From Flavipsychrobacter sp. (GTDB lineage Bacteria > Bacteroidota > Bacteroidia > Chitinophagales > Chitinophagaceae): a stretch of 36,556 nucleotides of DNA. Below, piece by piece: positions 6,775-34,046 of the stretch; positions within the stretch are counted from its first letter, which is position 1, and the number at the start of each line of letters is the position of its first letter. The notes under the pieces are model-generated. The model worked only from the letters and a program-made list of their open reading frames with translations. It did not search any database and was not told the DNA's origin. The stretch is from contig JAEUVX010000012.1 of the NCBI GenBank assembly GCA_016786615.1, positions 1 through 36,556 on the forward strand, in the 5' to 3' direction. Both the position numbers and the translations under genes were made by a program.

Positions 6775-6799
6775 AAAAGGCTGCTATTAGCAGCCTTTT
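6775..6799. terminator. Terminator at the original 3' side of tRNA-Val
   Basis: AAAAGGCTGCT (6775-6785) pairs with AGCAGCCTTTT (6789-6799) around a 3-nt loop, with A/T runs on both sides. It can end the Na/Pi gene on the plus strand. Before integration it would also have ended the minus-strand tRNA-Val transcript, because the tRNA remnant begins a few bases away. Confidence 0.85.
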
Positions 6800-6849
6800 A
6801 TTCTGTGGAAGCACACGGGATCGAACCGCGGACCCCCTGCTTGTAAGGC
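6796..6849. repeat. attL: left 54-bp direct repeat with tRNA-Val 3' fragment
   Basis: Identical over 54 bp to 33962-34015. Read on the minus strand it holds the tRNA from the anticodon stem (GCCTTACAAGC) to the 3' end plus the downstream TTCTG bases. The match stops inside the 5' side of the anticodon stem, so crossover happened in or downstream of the anticodon stem-loop. The remaining DNA up to 7183 has no gene; it carries the hairpin listed at 7003-7034. Confidence 0.95.
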
Positions 6850-7466: not shown

Positions 7467-8477
7467 TTAATTAAGAAACCAGTTATCTGAACTGCTGATA
7501 ATGCTATCCTGCAATTCATTGACAATAGTGTATGCATTGGCACTCCTGTCCAGAAAACTGTCTATATAGGAGCCTTTATTAGCCCCTGTCAGCAGATTAT
7601 ACAACTTCCAGAGATTTATACTGCCATCTGCACTCCTGCTGAAACTTAAATCGTTGTAATAGTCTTTACATACTACATTGATTTGTGCATCGCCAAACAT
7701 CATTTCTCCTATATCCTGCTTCATAGCAGGCTGCAAGTACTTATACATCCTGCATCTGCCGATAAAATGGGCAAACTGGCTTTCGGAGATACTTAATCCC
7801 TGCATCGACGACATTGTATTGATTTCTTTATCAATTTTGTACTCCGATAGCAAGCTGTTTACTGCTGATTTAAGTTGTGGCAGATTCCTGACTTTCAGGT
7901 TACTCATATAACCATCGGTAGATACACACAAATTGGTGCATACTGTATTCTGAAAGCCGATAAATACTTTGAAGTGCTGCTCTGCACCTGATTTTGCATA
8001 AAGATTGTCCAGATTGTATGCTTTTACGCCTCCAATAGTCAGCAATAGCTTATTCCCTGCTATATCTGTAGCTATAGAAGGTACTGTAACAACAAATGCC
8101 ATGCGTTCGTAGTAGAGTGTTTTTTCATGCTCCATCAGCTCACCTGCAGGCTTATTTCGTGCTTCAGGTATGCGTCCTTTTATCGGGTGTGATACCCTTA
8201 TATCAGGTACATTTATACGCTCTCCGTTAAAAACATTCTGCACACATTCCATGACTGTTTCTATCATAGCTCCATGAGAAATTACAGGCTCATTGTCTTT
8301 GATAAATACGGGTATAATATGTTCGGCTGTTAGTTCACTAATACTTACCTGAATTGTATTAGCTTCTATGAATGGCGTGTTATTACCTATCTGTATATCA
8401 TTAACAATAGGCTGTATGAGCTCTTTTACGTGTAGTGGCTCATTATTAATTGCTGTATTAACCTGTATAAGTTCCAT
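7467..8477 (-). CDS. DUF3871 family protein
   Basis: 336 residues. The block VSHPIKGRIPEARNKPAGEL, followed by LMEHEKTLYYERMAF and then FIGFQNTVCTNLCVSTDG, is what I know as the DUF3871 signature in Bacteroidota mobile elements and plasmids. The biochemical role is unknown. The two nearby cysteines (TVCTNLCVS) and the recurring partnership with a RecA-like ATPase suggest a part in DNA recombination or replication of the element (inference). Its first 20 bp overlap the end of the ATPase gene, implying translational coupling. Start ATG at 8475-8477 (MELIQVNTAIN). Confidence 0.85.
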   Translation of the reverse strand: MELIQVNTAINNEPLHVKELIQPIVNDIQIGNNTPFIEANTIQVSISELTAEHIIPVFIKDNEPVISHGAMIETVMECVQNVFNGERINVPDIRVSHPIKGRIPEARNKPAGELMEHEKTLYYERMAFVVTVPSIATDIAGNKLLLTIGGVKAYNLDNLYAKSGAEQHFKVFIGFQNTVCTNLCVSTDGYMSNLKVRNLPQLKSAVNSLLSEYKIDKEINTMSSMQGLSISESQFAHFIGRCRMYKYLQPAMKQDIGEMMFGDAQINVVCKDYYNDLSFSRSADGSINLWKLYNLLTGANKGSYIDSFLDRSANAYTIVNELQDSIISSSDNWFLN

Positions 8478-9339
8478 TGGCTATGTTTTTTTGAGGTTCA
8501 ATAATGTGAGTAGTATGCAACTGCTGTTTACGTGCTGTGAAATCAGGTAGTAAAATCTCCTGAAGGTCGGGATGCTTATTAAATAACAGCAGCAGTTCTT
8601 CATTTGTCATACAGGAGAGAATAGATTGCCGTACTTCTTCCTGTGAACTTTGTACAAATGCATGTCCCTTTTGACACCATGCTGCTATTTTCACTCCTGT
8701 ATCAACAGCAGGAATAAACATCGGTTTATGGGTGAACATCTCTGTACGGTCTTTGGATACTTTTGCATGCAGGCTATTATCCAGGTCGAAGACAATGGTA
8801 AATTCATAGTCTATACCATCACGTTGTATGGATTTCAGCCCTACTTTTTCAGGCACTTGTTTACCAGCTTTTTCAGATAACACATAGTCCTGTTTTACCC
8901 TGATGGTACATATTATGTGCACATCTGCTAACAAGATGGCATTGATAAATGAATTGTGCCTTGGTGTCAGCTTTGACCAGTTAGTAAAGCTATTACCAAC
9001 CATCGATGCATGACACTCCAGTATACCGCCTAAGCCATCCCATTCATGAGAAATACTGTCGATGATGATAACTTTCATACCTGCATCTATGCAAATATTA
9101 AGTGCCTCAATGTATCTCTCAGGAGTAAATGGTGGTTGCAGGGGCAGTACTTTGTAATTACCCAAATCTGCGTATAAGTCTGCTGACCTGTTTTCTGTAT
9201 CAATAACAGCTATATATTCCCATTCAGGAGAAATACCTTTTGCTATCAATAGTGCAGACCTTGTTTTACCAGAACCTGATGGCCCCTGAAGTGCCATTTT
9301 CATTTTAGTGTGCTTTCTGCTTGCATTATGCAGTTCCAT
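8458..9339 (-). CDS. RecA-like AAA ATPase (Sak4/phage NTP-binding type)
   Basis: 293 residues. Walker A is GPSGSGKT (G19-T26), followed by a strand ending in VIDTENRSADLY, the acidic motif of Sak4-like proteins. Walker B is VIIIDSISHEW (D94), with a RecA-like core to about residue 200. The C-terminal 90 residues are polar and helical. Sak4-type ATPases assist single-strand annealing or recombination with an SSB partner in phages; that role here is inference. The upstream small gene is a candidate partner, and DUF3871 overlaps the 3' end. A strong terminator lies between this gene and the upstream small gene, so expression may depend on read-through or an internal promoter. Confidence 0.85.
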   Translation of the reverse strand: MELHNASRKHTKMKMALQGPSGSGKTRSALLIAKGISPEWEYIAVIDTENRSADLYADLGNYKVLPLQPPFTPERYIEALNICIDAGMKVIIIDSISHEWDGLGGILECHASMVGNSFTNWSKLTPRHNSFINAILLADVHIICTIRVKQDYVLSEKAGKQVPEKVGLKSIQRDGIDYEFTIVFDLDNSLHAKVSKDRTEMFTHKPMFIPAVDTGVKIAAWCQKGHAFVQSSQEEVRQSILSCMTNEELLLLFNKHPDLQEILLPDFTARKQQLHTTHIIEPQKNIANGTYTG

Positions 9340-9388: not shown

Positions 9389-9721
9389 TTATGCCAGAAC
9401 ATTTACTGCAGCAGGCATCGTTAGCTTTTCTTCAGGTACGTAATCATACCTGTAAGCGAGTGTTATTATCTCTCCTGTTTCAGGTATTGTGAACTCATAA
9501 GGCTCACATGGCACACGTACAATAGAACCCTGCATTGGCCTGCCAACCATACGTTTGGCTGTAGGTTCATCGAAGGTTGAGAATATCCTGCACCTTCGGG
9601 TAGTGGCATAAAATCTGCCTGTGTTCTGAGACTGCACCATTTCCAAGTCTCCTTCAAGTTCCAATGATACATAAGTACCTTGCTCGCCATCTTTCAGCGA
9701 ATAGTTTTTTACGATAACCAT
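9389..9721 (-). CDS. Small beta-rich protein, candidate ssDNA-binding partner
   Basis: 110 residues from the ATG at 9719-9721 (MVIVKNYSLKDG). The reading frame upstream of this ATG has only a TTG start, and it overlaps a leader hairpin, so the ATG is preferred. The protein is acidic at the N-terminus and strand-rich throughout (TYVSLELEGDLEMV, RFYATTRRCRIFSTF, GSIVRVPCEPYEFTI, EIITLAYRYDYV), with no signal peptide. The size and strand pattern could fit an OB-fold, and the downstream Sak4-like ATPase would make an SSB-like partner sensible. Both points are inference and no family was recognised. Bracketed by two terminator-like hairpins. Confidence 0.75.
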   Translation of the reverse strand: MVIVKNYSLKDGEQGTYVSLELEGDLEMVQSQNTGRFYATTRRCRIFSTFDEPTAKRMVGRPMQGSIVRVPCEPYEFTIPETGEIITLAYRYDYVPEEKLTMPAAVNVLA

Positions 9722-25320: not shown

Positions 25321-26247
25321 TTAGTTTTTGTATAGCTTAAAACTTACCTGATACCTGTAGAAGTCGATATTAGGCGCTACTGCCAATGCACGTTTAATAC
25401 GTAGGTCATCTTCCAGTGCAATGATAACACCTTTTACCGTTTGCCCTTCTTCTGCCAGTTCTTCCAACACATAGCCCATATAGCGTTGTATCTGCCCAAC
25501 TACATTATCGCTCGCTCTGCCTTTTTTCAGTTCTACAACCAGCAACTCCTTTTTATCTTTACTGATAGCCAGTATATCTAAAGTACCTGTATCTGTTTGA
25601 TATTGCTGCCCAACTAATTCCCCATCTTCAGAAAATATATCGTACTGCTTACCAAGTTCTGTCTGCGACCAATTTTTTACAAGGAATTCTTCAAGATGCT
25701 TTTCCATTGCAAATATGACAGGGTCTTCAATGGTTTCATCTGATGAAATAATAACAGGTGGTTTGTTACCACCTATGTATAATTCTATTTCGTCTGCATA
25801 CTTTGTAATATCGCTTACAGTGCCAATAGAACCTGTACTGTTTTTTAGTGCATCACTCATCTCTGCGCGGTCTATCCGCACATTATACCATTTAACAGCC
25901 CTTCGGTGTGGTAGGTTAGTACCTGCATGGTAGGTGTAGTTTTCAATTACTTCACCCACATAATAGCTGCCTGTACCGGTAGGGCATAAAACTATATCGC
26001 CAATCTTAATGCCCTTGCATACCGTCCATAAAGCACCGCAAGACAAGCCAGCGGCTACTTTGCTTTTATCAGGATGCTTTTGCATCCATACTGGGATAAA
26101 TTTATGGTTGAAATCTCTCCAGTTATCAGGTAATTGCCCTGTGAGGTTTGTATCAATATCAAAGTTTGCACCAATGAAATTGCCAGCATAACATTCATCT
26201 GCATGTATGCTCTTAGGGCCAAGCATTATACGTAGGTATCTTTTCAT
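25321..26247 (-). CDS. PUA/EVE-like plus NucS-like nuclease protein inside the type I R-M operon
   Basis: 308 residues. The C-terminal part (about 175-308) resembles the NucS/DUF91 endonuclease domain: TLDILAI (D224), VVELKKG (E239-x-K241), then Q252 and RYMGY (Y256), with the Lys-to-Gln spacing of 11 seen in NucS. The N-terminal part (about 1-160) includes IGDIVLCPTGTGSYYVGEV and HRRAVKWYNVRID. I read it as a PUA-superfamily (EVE/ASCH-like) domain of the kind that senses modified bases in type IV restriction enzymes; this is a weaker match. It sits between hsdS and hsdR, 36 bp and 3 bp away, so it is an operon member. Possible role: a second, modification-sensing restriction activity or a repair nuclease. 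Confidence 0.8.
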   Translation of the reverse strand: MKRYLRIMLGPKSIHADECYAGNFIGANFDIDTNLTGQLPDNWRDFNHKFIPVWMQKHPDKSKVAAGLSCGALWTVCKGIKIGDIVLCPTGTGSYYVGEVIENYTYHAGTNLPHRRAVKWYNVRIDRAEMSDALKNSTGSIGTVSDITKYADEIELYIGGNKPPVIISSDETIEDPVIFAMEKHLEEFLVKNWSQTELGKQYDIFSEDGELVGQQYQTDTGTLDILAISKDKKELLVVELKKGRASDNVVGQIQRYMGYVLEELAEEGQTVKGVIIALEDDLRIKRALAVAPNIDFYRYQVSFKLYKN

Positions 26248-30553: not shown

Positions 30554-31144
30554 ATGAATATAGAAAAGTGGGTACCAATAGAAGGGTACCAGAGCTATTA
30601 CGAAGTTGCCAATGATGGCAGCGTTCGAAGTGTGGACAGGCGAATTGAGCTTAAAAAAGGCAGCAGATTTGTAAGAGGCAGAACATTATCTCCCAAAAAC
30701 TTGGGCAGCGGCTATCTGGCTGTAGTGCTTTGCAGGGACAGCTTAAATAAACAGGAGTACATACACAGGCTCGTAGCATCAGCATTTGTTGATAATCCGA
30801 ATAACTACAAGTATGTAAATCACATTGATGGCAACCCAAGCAATAACCATGCTGATAACCTGGAATGGGTGAGCCACAGGCAGAACGTACAACATGCTTA
30901 TGATACAGGACTGAACAGCAACAAAGGTGGCAACCACACTTTCGCTGTTGGGGTAGTCGATAACCAGCTAGGTCGGGAGTTCTCCTCAATAAGAGATTGG
31001 GCTGAGGCAAGGAATATCAATTATCATACAGCTCGAAATGTGGTAAATGGCTACAGCAGCTTGAAAGAGGTGGACAAAACATTAATTATTAAACTTAAAA
31101 ACCCTACTACGAATGAAAAAAATGATGATACCCAAAAACCTTAA
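30554..31144 (+). CDS. NUMOD4-HNH homing-type endonuclease
   Basis: 196 residues. NUMOD4 domain (about 5-45, WVPIEGYQSYYEVANDGSVR), then an HNH_3 nuclease core (about 55-115) with H71, N89-H90, D92 and N102 in HRLVASAF, VNHIDGN and NLEWVSH. A NUMOD1-like DNA-binding helix segment follows (about 130-170, GREFSSIRDWAEARNI). This is the classic free-standing HNH homing endonuclease layout. It is not inside an intron or intein here. The ATG (MNIEKW) lies at the start of the NUMOD4 domain. Its 3' end overlaps the next gene by up to 32 bp, implying co-expression with the polymerase-like protein. Confidence 0.92.
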   Translation: MNIEKWVPIEGYQSYYEVANDGSVRSVDRRIELKKGSRFVRGRTLSPKNLGSGYLAVVLCRDSLNKQEYIHRLVASAFVDNPNNYKYVNHIDGNPSNNHADNLEWVSHRQNVQHAYDTGLNSNKGGNHTFAVGVVDNQLGREFSSIRDWAEARNINYHTARNVVNGYSSLKEVDKTLIIKLKNPTTNEKNDDTQKP

Positions 31145-32546
31145 GATTGATAATCTCATAGGCAGGTATAGCACAAATAAAATTGAAGGCTTTCATCTCG
31201 ATAAAGTCTATTTTATATGTTTCAGTATTTACCAAATGATGATGTATCTGGATGAGCACCAAAAGTACCCTGGTAAGGACAAATGCTATTATGTACCATT
31301 ACAGGCAAGCATTCTGAAAAAACACCTTGGGAATAAGTATACGAAGATTGTTAACTGGATGAAGAAAGCGGGTATAATACAGACAGATAAAAGCTGGCAA
31401 AACAGTGTTACTTCAAAAGGCTTCCGATTAACAGATAAATATCTTGGTTCCGGTAAGAAATGGGTAACTGTTACTTATGAGCCATTTCTGAAACGTAAAA
31501 AGAGGATTGAACGAATAAACAACTGGCCTCTGGAAAAAAGAGTTGTTGGAATGCTACAGAAGTGGTTTGATACAGGTGCACTGAAAATTGATGTTGCTGC
31601 TGCTGATAATGAATTGAAGAAATATAAACAGCAGGAACTGGATGCGCAAAAAAAAGCCAATAGGATTAAAGTACAAGTCAGGTATATGTCGAGAATGAGT
31701 GCAGTGTACTCCTTAAGCGAAAAAAGATACAATATTGTTCAGGATAGTTATGGCTACAGGGTGCATACTCCACTGACACAACTAAAAAAAGAGTTACGAT
31801 GCTTTGTAACATATAACAATGAGAAATTGGTTCAACTGGATATAAAAAACAGCCAGTTATTCTTTATGTGCTATTTACTAAACGAGGATAACTGGAAAAT
31901 CAAAGGTGCAAATCGCGAAAAAAAGTCGAATATCTGGAAAAGTATCAATTCACATAGAGAGGGACAGAATAACACTATATCCAATACTATTATGTTTCCC
32001 GATTCCGCTAAAAGCCTTACCGGTGAATGTTTTCAGAAAAATGAATTTGTCAAAAATGCGTGTGAGGGCAGTCTTTATGAATCTATAGTATCAGCATATT
32101 ATAATGCACAAGATGAAGTGATTGGAAGGAAAGAAGTGAAACAGGTGCTATTGGGTCAAATCTTCTGTAATCCAGATAGGGATAAGTACTTCTTTTTTGG
32201 TAAAAATAGTAGGACATGGGAGTGTTTTCAAACATTATACCCTGATGTAGCAACCATAATAGATACTATTAAACGGCATAATCACAAATACATGAGTATG
32301 CTGCTCCAACGAATAGAGAGCACTGCGATGCTGAGCTATGTTTGTAAAAACATACAAAAGCATAATAAGGATATACCTTTATTTACTATTCATGATTGTT
32401 TGGTAACTACTATTAATCATAAAATGACTGTTGAGGCGCTAATGATAAATAGTATTGAGGAGTTCACCGGATTAAAACCTACTTTAGATATTACGTACTG
32501 GAGTAGTGAGCAACTGAATAATGAAGAACTGAATAAAGCAGCGTAA
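31113..32546 (+). CDS. Divergent family A polymerase-like protein with N-terminal winged-helix-like region
   Basis: 477 residues, usually annotated as hypothetical. Residues about 55-115 look like a winged helix (SILKKHLGNKYTKIVNWM, then TSKGFRLTDKYLG). A charged helical linker (about 140-190) follows. Residues about 215-460 carry three ordered polymerase motifs: motif A LDIKNSQLFF (D243, S247, Q248); motif B R339-x3-K343 through G348-QIF, aligning with RxxxKxxNFGxIYG of Pol I; motif C FTIHDCLV (H427, D428). No 5'-nuclease or proofreading domain. A role in copying or initiating the element is inference. The exact start is uncertain: ATGs at 31113, 31122 and 31125 are all possible, all overlapping the HNH gene. 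Confidence 0.75.
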   Translation: MKKMMIPKNLKIDNLIGRYSTNKIEGFHLDKVYFICFSIYQMMMYLDEHQKYPGKDKCYYVPLQASILKKHLGNKYTKIVNWMKKAGIIQTDKSWQNSVTSKGFRLTDKYLGSGKKWVTVTYEPFLKRKKRIERINNWPLEKRVVGMLQKWFDTGALKIDVAAADNELKKYKQQELDAQKKANRIKVQVRYMSRMSAVYSLSEKRYNIVQDSYGYRVHTPLTQLKKELRCFVTYNNEKLVQLDIKNSQLFFMCYLLNEDNWKIKGANREKKSNIWKSINSHREGQNNTISNTIMFPDSAKSLTGECFQKNEFVKNACEGSLYESIVSAYYNAQDEVIGRKEVKQVLLGQIFCNPDRDKYFFFGKNSRTWECFQTLYPDVATIIDTIKRHNHKYMSMLLQRIESTAMLSYVCKNIQKHNKDIPLFTIHDCLVTTINHKMTVEALMINSIEEFTGLKPTLDITYWSSEQLNNEELNKAA

Positions 32547-32553
32547 AATAGAG

Positions 32554-32577
32554 GGGAGGCTAAACACCTCCCTTTTT
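32554..32577. terminator. Shared terminator between polymerase-like gene and integrase
   Basis: GGGAGG (32554-32559) pairs with CCTCCC (32567-32572) around a 7-nt loop, followed by TTTTT on the plus strand. It ends the rightward gene (stop at 32544-32546). The stem overlaps the last codons of the convergent integrase gene. Confidence 0.8.
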
Positions 32578-33813
32578 GTTTTTCTTGTATACTGTATCAA
32601 TGACCTGAGCGTTTATTGCATCTATTACATCATTATCATAGTTATCCAAGTAAATGCCCGTAACACTGTTACCATATTCATGCCCCAAAGCTTCTGCAAT
32701 CTTATCTTTAGAATGCCCTAACTGCTTTGCAATATTCGCCCATGTATAACGTGCATAGTAGGTTGTTATATCCTTTTTGATGCTGCAATCTGATGCTATA
32801 CGCTTTAAATAGTCATTACAGGTTTTTACTGCTTGTTTAATATCATTTTTCTGCTGTAAAGGAGAAACACCCATTTTTAATACAGGTAATAAGTAACCCA
32901 TATCTGATAACTTCTCTCCTGAATAACAGGACAATATTTTCAGTGCCTTTTCATGCAGCTTAATACTATACAGCTTCTTTGTTTTACTACGCCTGAACAC
33001 TACTCTGCCATCCATAATATTTTTACTTGTCAACGTTAATAAATCTGTAAAGTTGATTCCTATCAGGCAGAAGGAAAGCATAAAATAATTACGCCAGTGC
33101 CATATCGGAGTATCAGCAACTAATTCCAATTGTGCTATACTTCTTATCTCCTGATGCGTCAGAGCTCTACTCATAGTCTTTTCATTCCTGATAGTATAGT
33201 TCTTAAAAGGGTACTTGTTTGCATCTGCAACACCTTCCTTTATTGCACGATTGTAAATCGCTCTTAATGTTCTGAAATACACTGATACAGTATTTACTTT
33301 AATACCTTCACTCAACAACATAGTGCTGTAGTCAGAAAGAAATTTATAATCAATATCATTAAACTTCAGATTTCGCTTACCCACGTATGCTTTCAGCCTG
33401 TTTACTGCTATTTCATACACCATAGAGTTACCTACTTTACCAGATTTTTTCATGTTATTGATTAAATCATCTGCGTATGTAAAAAAAGTAGCTTGTTCAT
33501 ATTTTTGTTTTTTACTCGCATCAAATAGCTTTTCAAAAACCTCATCAGCAGTATGTATTAATTCATCACTTGCGAATAATATCAGCCTTTGGACTTTAGC
33601 TCTTTGTGCCATTATTGTAGCATTAAACTCTACAGAAAACGGATGACTTGAATGTACCATTTGCTTTTCTGCATCCCAATCATCCACTCTCAATGAAATA
33701 TTGAGGCTTTGCTCTCTGAACGTATTGGCATCATACACTCTTATCTTAACCGGATAGGTACTATCCTTCTTTATTCTTCGGGTATCTAATATGATTTTGT
33801 AAGTTAAGCCCAT
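32560..33813 (-). CDS. Tyrosine recombinase (integrase) of the element
   Basis: 417 residues. The N-terminal Arm-binding strand domain (about 1-60) has the Bacteroidota pattern YPVKIRVYDANTFREQSLNI; then a SAM-like core-binding domain (about 105-200) and the catalytic domain (about 215-405). Visible catalytic positions: K277, R355 in TYYARYTW, H378 in EALGH and nucleophile Y388 in GIYLDNY. The first catalytic Arg expected in GLRxSEL is Asn here (GINFTDLL, N254), and the usual His of HxxR is Tyr (Y352). Loss of the first Arg is known in the CTnDOT-type integrase group. It lies beside the right end of the element and should catalyse integration at tRNA-Val. Confidence 0.93.
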   Translation of the reverse strand: MGLTYKIILDTRRIKKDSTYPVKIRVYDANTFREQSLNISLRVDDWDAEKQMVHSSHPFSVEFNATIMAQRAKVQRLILFASDELIHTADEVFEKLFDASKKQKYEQATFFTYADDLINNMKKSGKVGNSMVYEIAVNRLKAYVGKRNLKFNDIDYKFLSDYSTMLLSEGIKVNTVSVYFRTLRAIYNRAIKEGVADANKYPFKNYTIRNEKTMSRALTHQEIRSIAQLELVADTPIWHWRNYFMLSFCLIGINFTDLLTLTSKNIMDGRVVFRRSKTKKLYSIKLHEKALKILSCYSGEKLSDMGYLLPVLKMGVSPLQQKNDIKQAVKTCNDYLKRIASDCSIKKDITTYYARYTWANIAKQLGHSKDKIAEALGHEYGNSVTGIYLDNYDNDVIDAINAQVIDTVYKKNKKGGV

Positions 33814-33920: not shown

Positions 33921-33965
33921 AAAAACCTCCAAAAGCCTTATGTATATTGACTCTTAGAGGTTTTT
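33921..33965 (-). terminator. Element-borne terminator for tRNA-Val
   Basis: AAAAACCTC (33921-33929) pairs with GAGGTTTTT (33957-33965), with a 27-nt loop. On the minus strand it follows the tRNA by a few bases and ends in a T-run. It replaces the original terminator now left at 6775-6799. Confidence 0.6.
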
Positions 33966-34015
33966 ATTCTGTGGAAGCACACGGGATCGAACCGCGGACC
34001 CCCTGCTTGTAAGGC
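33962..34015. repeat. attR: right 54-bp direct repeat within intact tRNA-Val
   Basis: Identical to 6796-6849. It spans bases just downstream of the tRNA through its 3' half into the 5' side of the anticodon stem. Because the element supplied this half, the tRNA gene is rebuilt and remains functional. Confidence 0.95.
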
Positions 34016-34046
34016 AGGTGCTCTGAACCAGCTGAGCTATGCTTCC
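33972..34046 (-). tRNA. tRNA-Val (anticodon UAC)
   Basis: 75 nt on the minus strand. The acceptor stem GGAAGCA pairs with TGCTTCC, with A as discriminator and no encoded CCA. D-arm GCTC/GAGC; anticodon stem CCTGC/GCAGG with loop CTTACAA, giving anticodon TAC; T-arm with TTCGATC loop and one G-T pair. It reads GUA and other GUN valine codons. Its 3' half is duplicated at 6796-6849 as the left border of the integrated element. Confidence 0.97.

Follow-up and report, generated by a model that had tools for sequence, protein, structure and literature searches.

The right part of contig JAEUVX010000012.1 of Flavipsychrobacter sp. (assembly GCA_016786615.1) raises the question of what is encoded by a gene for a 477-residue protein that lies beside the integrase gene of an integrative element. 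The window analysed here, 36,556 bp in length, is a complete contig of a draft genome. An original prediction, made from the sequence alone, described the product as a minimal family A polymerase with a winged-helix-like N-terminus, no nuclease domain, and a location on an integrative element. Sequence comparison and a predicted model support its assignment as a minimal family A polymerase on such an element, and we put at about 60% the probability that it is the replication enzyme of this approximately 27 kbp element, built from a winged-helix head and a nuclease-free family A core.

The open reading frame (ORF), its length, and residues D243, R339-x3-K343, G348, F351, Q399-R-I-E402 and H427-D428 are all as originally described. 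The window protein has no matches in Pfam (including PF00476), NCBIfam or PADLOC at E values up to 1, or among Protein Data Bank (PDB) sequences at E up to 10 (phmmer), and its four weak matches in PHROGs are of unknown function. Because there is no Pfam match, no nuclease domain is recognised, in agreement with the earlier claim. Profiles of its relatives were also compared with PDB sequences using hmmsearch; profiles A1 and A2 (the latter from 48 ORFs minus one duplicate and two fragments) have no match at E up to 10, and A4 has five non-significant matches, the best being N4 RNAP2 (0.74) and the remainder tRNA-splicing endonuclease chains.

The family profile aligns with a profile of DNA polymerase A proteins over 191 columns (P 1.6e-5, probability 79%), and their TGR motif, motifs A, B and C, and the Q-helix are all in register. 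The polymerase set was broadened after a weak link to five phage polymerase A neighbours (hhalign, P 1.7e-4, probability 50%), and the P value of 1.6e-5 is thus not blind; 37 unrelated clusters provide the control, with a best P of 0.017. Hhalign comparisons with thirteen Bacteroidota polymerase A sequences alone and with T7 RNA polymerase alone are not significant. With hmmsearch, two of the five phage proteins match at E values of 6.6e-4 and 7.2e-4; another two have E values of 1.8 and 3.4, and the fifth does not appear among the reported matches.

The predicted fold of the window protein is a family A right hand. Among the matches listed in a structural search, 48 of 50 are DNA polymerases and two are mitochondrial RNA polymerase, and all 50 listed in a second search are DNA polymerases. 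In the model, D243 lies at the end of the strand at residues 237–244, and a hairpin (strands 424–426 and 429–433) has H427-D428 at its turn; the motif A Asp and motif C of Pol I are placed in the same way, at a strand end and in a hairpin turn. The hallmarks of superfamily A are therefore present, namely the right-hand fold (as modelled), Asp residues in motifs A and C, and RxxxK in the fingers helix, and the motifs are placed as a minimal family A polymerase predicts. Those of DNA polymerase I proper are absent, there being no PF00476 match, and the place of Glu710 being occupied by Gln in 116 and His in four of 120 relatives.

These 120 relatives constitute the A4 alignment, with a mean column identity of 11%; they were taken from 137 representatives after manual removal of five rows from phages or plasmids and twelve further ones (partial, overlong or of other kinds). 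Residues R216, D243, K343, E402 and D428 are each invariant (120/120), followed by H427 (118), Q248 (116), Q399 (115), S247 (109) and R339 (102). Four residues after K343 (K+4) there is Phe in 73 or Leu in 26, and at K+8 Phe in 88 or Tyr in 28, in agreement with the Pol I residues at these positions. Judged on the alignment, the conserved motif set is far above chance expectation. In a phylogenetic tree the window protein sits on a long branch (1.61), and its pairing with locus L084 is marked as a meeting of two such branches; we therefore draw no conclusion from the tree.

Motif A is where the original prediction needs correction. It had proposed two extra residues, and a closer likeness to T7 RNA polymerase than to Pol I, yet D243-I-K-N-S-Q248 pairs without a gap with D-Y-S-Q-I-E of polymerase A; no residues are added, and Gln248 stands at the Glu710 place. 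T7 RNA polymerase has Ser-Gly at the fourth and fifth positions after the Asp (D+4 and D+5), and N4 RNAP2 has D-A-T-S-S-G. The D+4 Ser is shared by the window protein and N4 RNAP2, and this part of the proposed likeness stands; the D+5 Gly is not shared, being Gln in 116 of the 120 relatives, and the listed folds are overwhelmingly DNA polymerases. In Pol I, Glu710 is concerned with ribonucleotide discrimination, and its counterpart is kept in CCPol, according to the accessible text (PMC7581432). The Gln by itself does not predict which sugar the window protein would use.

The N-terminal 126 residues are modelled as a winged helix, as had been suggested, and matches titled as initiator, Rep or DNA-binding N-terminal domains occupy ranks 1–3 and 12 of the structural comparison. 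In four intergenic stretches no iterons were found, as direct repeats of at least 9 bases in three copies or at least 12 bases in two (inverted copies not counted).

The integrative element is delimited by perfect 54-bp direct repeats, giving a length of about 27.2 kbp and, together with the integrase, confirming the proposed context. The integrase gene lies at the tRNA end and is convergent with the polymerase gene, 13 bases from its end. Cargo genes code for a large FG-GAP/RHS protein, a YgjP-like protein and a NucS_C-like nuclease, as well as for HsdM, HsdS and HsdR of a Type I restriction-modification operon. At the opposite end from the integrase are the genes of a 110-residue protein, an AAA_24 ATPase and a DUF3871 protein; going by the map, in an excised circle this cluster would be within a few kilobases of the integrase and polymerase genes, and we infer that it may have a role in replication. 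The 110-residue protein is possibly a single-stranded DNA-binding protein (SSB). No D5-like helicase is recognised among the window proteins scanned, a subset of the ORFs.

Table. Positions of the polymerase gene, its motifs, and other features of the element within the window.
Feature	Position	Strand	Basis or remark
Family A (TV-Pol-like) polymerase gene, 477 aa	31113..32546	+	Motifs, profile alignment, predicted fold
Predicted winged-helix domain, residues 1-126	31113..31490	+	
Polymerase core, residues 132-467	31506..32513	+	Span covered by structural matches
R216, counterpart of Pol I TGR arginine	31758..31760	+	A4 conservation; profile alignment
Motif A, D243-I-K-N-S-Q248	31839..31856	+	A4 conservation
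Motif B helix, R339-x3-K343...F351	32127..32165	+	A4 conservation; model helix 339-351
Q399-R-I-E402	32307..32318	+	A4 conservation
Motif C, H427-D428	32391..32396	+	A4 conservation; hairpin turn of predicted model
54-bp direct repeat, left element end	6796..6849		Perfect copy of right repeat
54-bp direct repeat, right element end	33962..34015		3' part and flank of tRNA-Val
tRNA-Val, insertion site	33971..34046	-	
Tyrosine integrase	32560..33813	-	Phage_int_SAM_5, Arm-DNA-bind_5, Phage_integrase
NUMOD4-HNH homing-endonuclease-like ORF	30554..31144	+	Overlaps polymerase start by 32 bp
Small conserved 110-aa ORF (family A5)	9392..9721	-	No Pfam match
AAA_24 ATPase	8458..9339	-	
DUF3871 protein	7467..8477	-	
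NucS_C-like PD-(D/E)XK protein	25321-26247	-	Within Type I restriction operon
FG-GAP/SpvB/RHS protein, 2153 aa	13808-20269	-	Carried by element

A similar context recurs among relatives. Neighbours were counted at 178 loci, from which six duplicates had been dropped and in which near copies may remain; as many loci are short or cut, the counts are lower bounds. Within 7 kb of the polymerase gene, members of the tyrosine integrase cluster that includes the window integrase are present at 95 loci, members of a serine recombinase cluster at 13, and either at 107 (one representative of each cluster was scanned). HTH_17 (excisionase-like) ORFs are near the polymerase gene at 49 loci, 41 of which also have a recombinase, and are the immediate same-strand upstream gene at 34 of the 149 loci having an upstream neighbour; in the window this place is taken by the HNH ORF. 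The polymerase gene thus often occupies the position that a primase or rep gene has on other integrative elements. The loci scanned also include 27 AAA_24 ORFs, 23 DUF3871 ORFs and eight members of the small-ORF family A5. The latter family is in 12 of 390 genomes, of which only G000, G084 and G088 are among the 12 polymerase-positive genomes of the single-protein search, and the link between the small ORF and the polymerase is thus not a strict one.

In five large viral genomes (L021, L232, L237, L241 and L242) the next gene downstream codes for a short DNA polymerase A protein, with PF00476 matches of 1e-17 to 1.1e-21, and 1.2e-19 for L021. The two genes overlap by 4 bp at four of these loci and are 9 bp apart at the fifth; the huge-phage loci L022-L024 have no polymerase A neighbour in that cluster. 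This adjacency suggests that the two proteins have complementary roles, the relative of the window protein perhaps acting in priming.

Of 395 genomes of the phylum, 12 have a relative by single-protein search, and of 395 genomes of the class, 31 have one with profile A1, the own genome being included in both counts; among the 31, the matches in G025 and G487 are all short and in broken frames, and that in G589 is confined to the N-terminal part. A degenerate pattern for the Arg region and motif A yields at least 120 stretches in genome contigs and 18 in viral contigs, and by profile all 138 listed stretches encode a family member. By record title, 104 of the 120 genome stretches are from Bacteroidota, the 16 others coming from Planctomycetota (ten), a single Rickettsiales bin (two contigs), and Rhizobium, Verrucomicrobiia, Chlorobiota and a Methanosarcinaceae bin (one each), although single non-Bacteroidota bins may reflect binning errors. 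A related-locus search with the window protein as sole query is negative in viral contigs. Relatives at 22–25% identity are present in one Hymenobacter plasmid and in six huge-phage records, one of which matches only at E 0.2 while another two, of equal length and match, look like copies of each other. In the 35-kb plasmid the relative is annotated as hypothetical, and none of the 14 features seen (of 37) is named as a replication protein.

The published group closest in description is the TV-Pol family, proposed as primase-polymerases, and with Bacteroidetes members listed (Iyer, Abhiman and Aravind 2008, PMC2579912). As described in the accessible text, TV-Pols resemble the window protein in having a minimal superfamily A core with a conserved Arg, two Asp residues and RxxxK but no nuclease domain, and in residing on elements that carry an integrase or resolvase, in the vicinity of restriction operons. 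The family studied here has this same core, with its Arg in a hairpin, and lies on mobile elements with an integrase or resolvase (107 of 178 loci). Since Bacteroidetes members in comparable surroundings are already on record, we regard the class as known. The two differ at the N-terminus, where the window protein has a predicted winged helix and a subset of TV-Pols is described as having an all-helical domain. A D5-like helicase is linked or fused to the polymerase in a TV-Pol subset; none is recognised among the window proteins scanned. Profile A2 has no match in the genome of Microcystis phage Ma-LMM01 (AB231700), one listed TV-Pol phage, in which the TV-Pol gene was not located; PF00476 matches there fall on fragments of an ordinary polymerase gene.

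CCPol-MP of SCC elements and the Pol-SSB pairs of Bacillota similarly have a family A core on an integrative element, and are proposed to copy it (PMC7581432, PMC10061031). Both have a small OB-fold partner protein, for which the 110-residue protein may be a counterpart, although the MP gene lies between the CCPol and helicase genes (PMC7581432) and the window ORF is at the opposite element end. CCPol has Glu where the window protein has Gln, and the accessible accounts of CCPol and Pol-SSB mention no winged helix on the polymerase. DNA polymerase I and T7 DNA polymerase differ from the window protein in the nuclease, the Glu710 residue, the head and the PF00476 match, whereas T7- and N4-like single-subunit RNA polymerases share its superfamily, the D+4 Ser and the HD of motif C, but differ in the Ser-Gly of motif A. 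In a search of article listings and openly accessible text, we found no description of this family with a winged helix, and neither the Gln at the Glu710 place nor the phage pairing with polymerase A appears in the accessible accounts (the TV-Pol alignment lies in figures and supplement).

If the window protein replicates the element, the integrase would excise it, with an HTH_17 excisionase in many relatives; the winged-helix head would bind the element's own origin, the core would make primers, extend them, or both, and copying of the excised circle, or of incoming single-stranded DNA, would precede reintegration. Priming is suggested by analogy, having been proposed for TV-Pols (PMC2579912) and shown for CCPol-MP (PMC7581432, in the accessible text). 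Of the roles originally proposed, replication initiator or primer-making enzyme has the best contextual fit, and the defence role has no direct support. The closest listed folds being DNA polymerases, and the K+4 and K+8 residues being Pol I-like, the protein could instead only extend primers, to fill gaps or to make the second strand after transfer, and its winged helix could serve simply to hold DNA; CCPol becomes a primase with MP, and without it just extends primers (PMC7581432). Such an enzyme would, however, be redundant in the five viral loci directly before a second family A polymerase; the Gln at the Glu710 place also speaks against it, and we consider this explanation unlikely.

A still weaker proposition is that the protein belongs with the T7, N4 and mitochondrial enzymes, as a single-subunit RNA polymerase or an RNA primase, given that the D+5 Gly is absent, K+8 is Phe rather than Tyr in 88 of 120 relatives, and only two of the 50 listed structural matches are RNA polymerases. 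A defence polymerase travelling with restriction systems would fit the Type I operon and NucS_C-like nuclease on the same element and the HsdR cluster members near the gene at eight of 178 loci, but is very improbable given that there is no PADLOC match, that neighbours vary whereas recombinases recur, and that relatives are on a plasmid and in huge phages. We give hardly any credence to a family A fold without catalysis, as a structural or DNA-binding relic; RRM-only proteins, most without the key Asp residues, do occur at Pol-SSB loci (PMC10061031, accessible text), but all five core residues are invariant here.

A broader proposal, which we offer tentatively and at somewhat less than even odds, is that these proteins are a distinct, self-contained class in which a winged-helix initiator is fused to a family A primase-polymerase, able to identify its own origin and to initiate DNA synthesis at that site. 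Integrative elements of Bacteroidota and Planctomycetota would use them, at least one plasmid would have one for its replication protein, and in some huge phages they would prime for a separate polymerase A; the replacement of the Glu710 sugar gate by Gln would be tied to de novo initiation. If the window protein does replicate the element, a widespread and unannotated enzyme family acquires a name, and with it comes a small enzyme that may combine origin recognition with family A synthesis. Two questions then become testable, namely how a polymerase fold that depends on primers comes to start chains, and by what means the replication of some integrative elements and huge phages is primed by their own enzymes.

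Several further features of the relatives were observed. The Flavipsychrobacter genome has a second, distant copy (24% identity; G000:C14:167516-168946), and relatives at L079, L120, L178, L213, L214, L243 and L248 are split over two ORFs, as broken or interrupted copies. Members of the NUMOD4-HNH cluster are also near the polymerase gene at L072, L211 and L214. A 686-residue relative (L056:9023-11083) has a C-terminal extension matching GIY-YIG (5.7e-5) and NUMOD1 (6.2e-11), and is thus a polymerase with a homing-endonuclease-like fusion.
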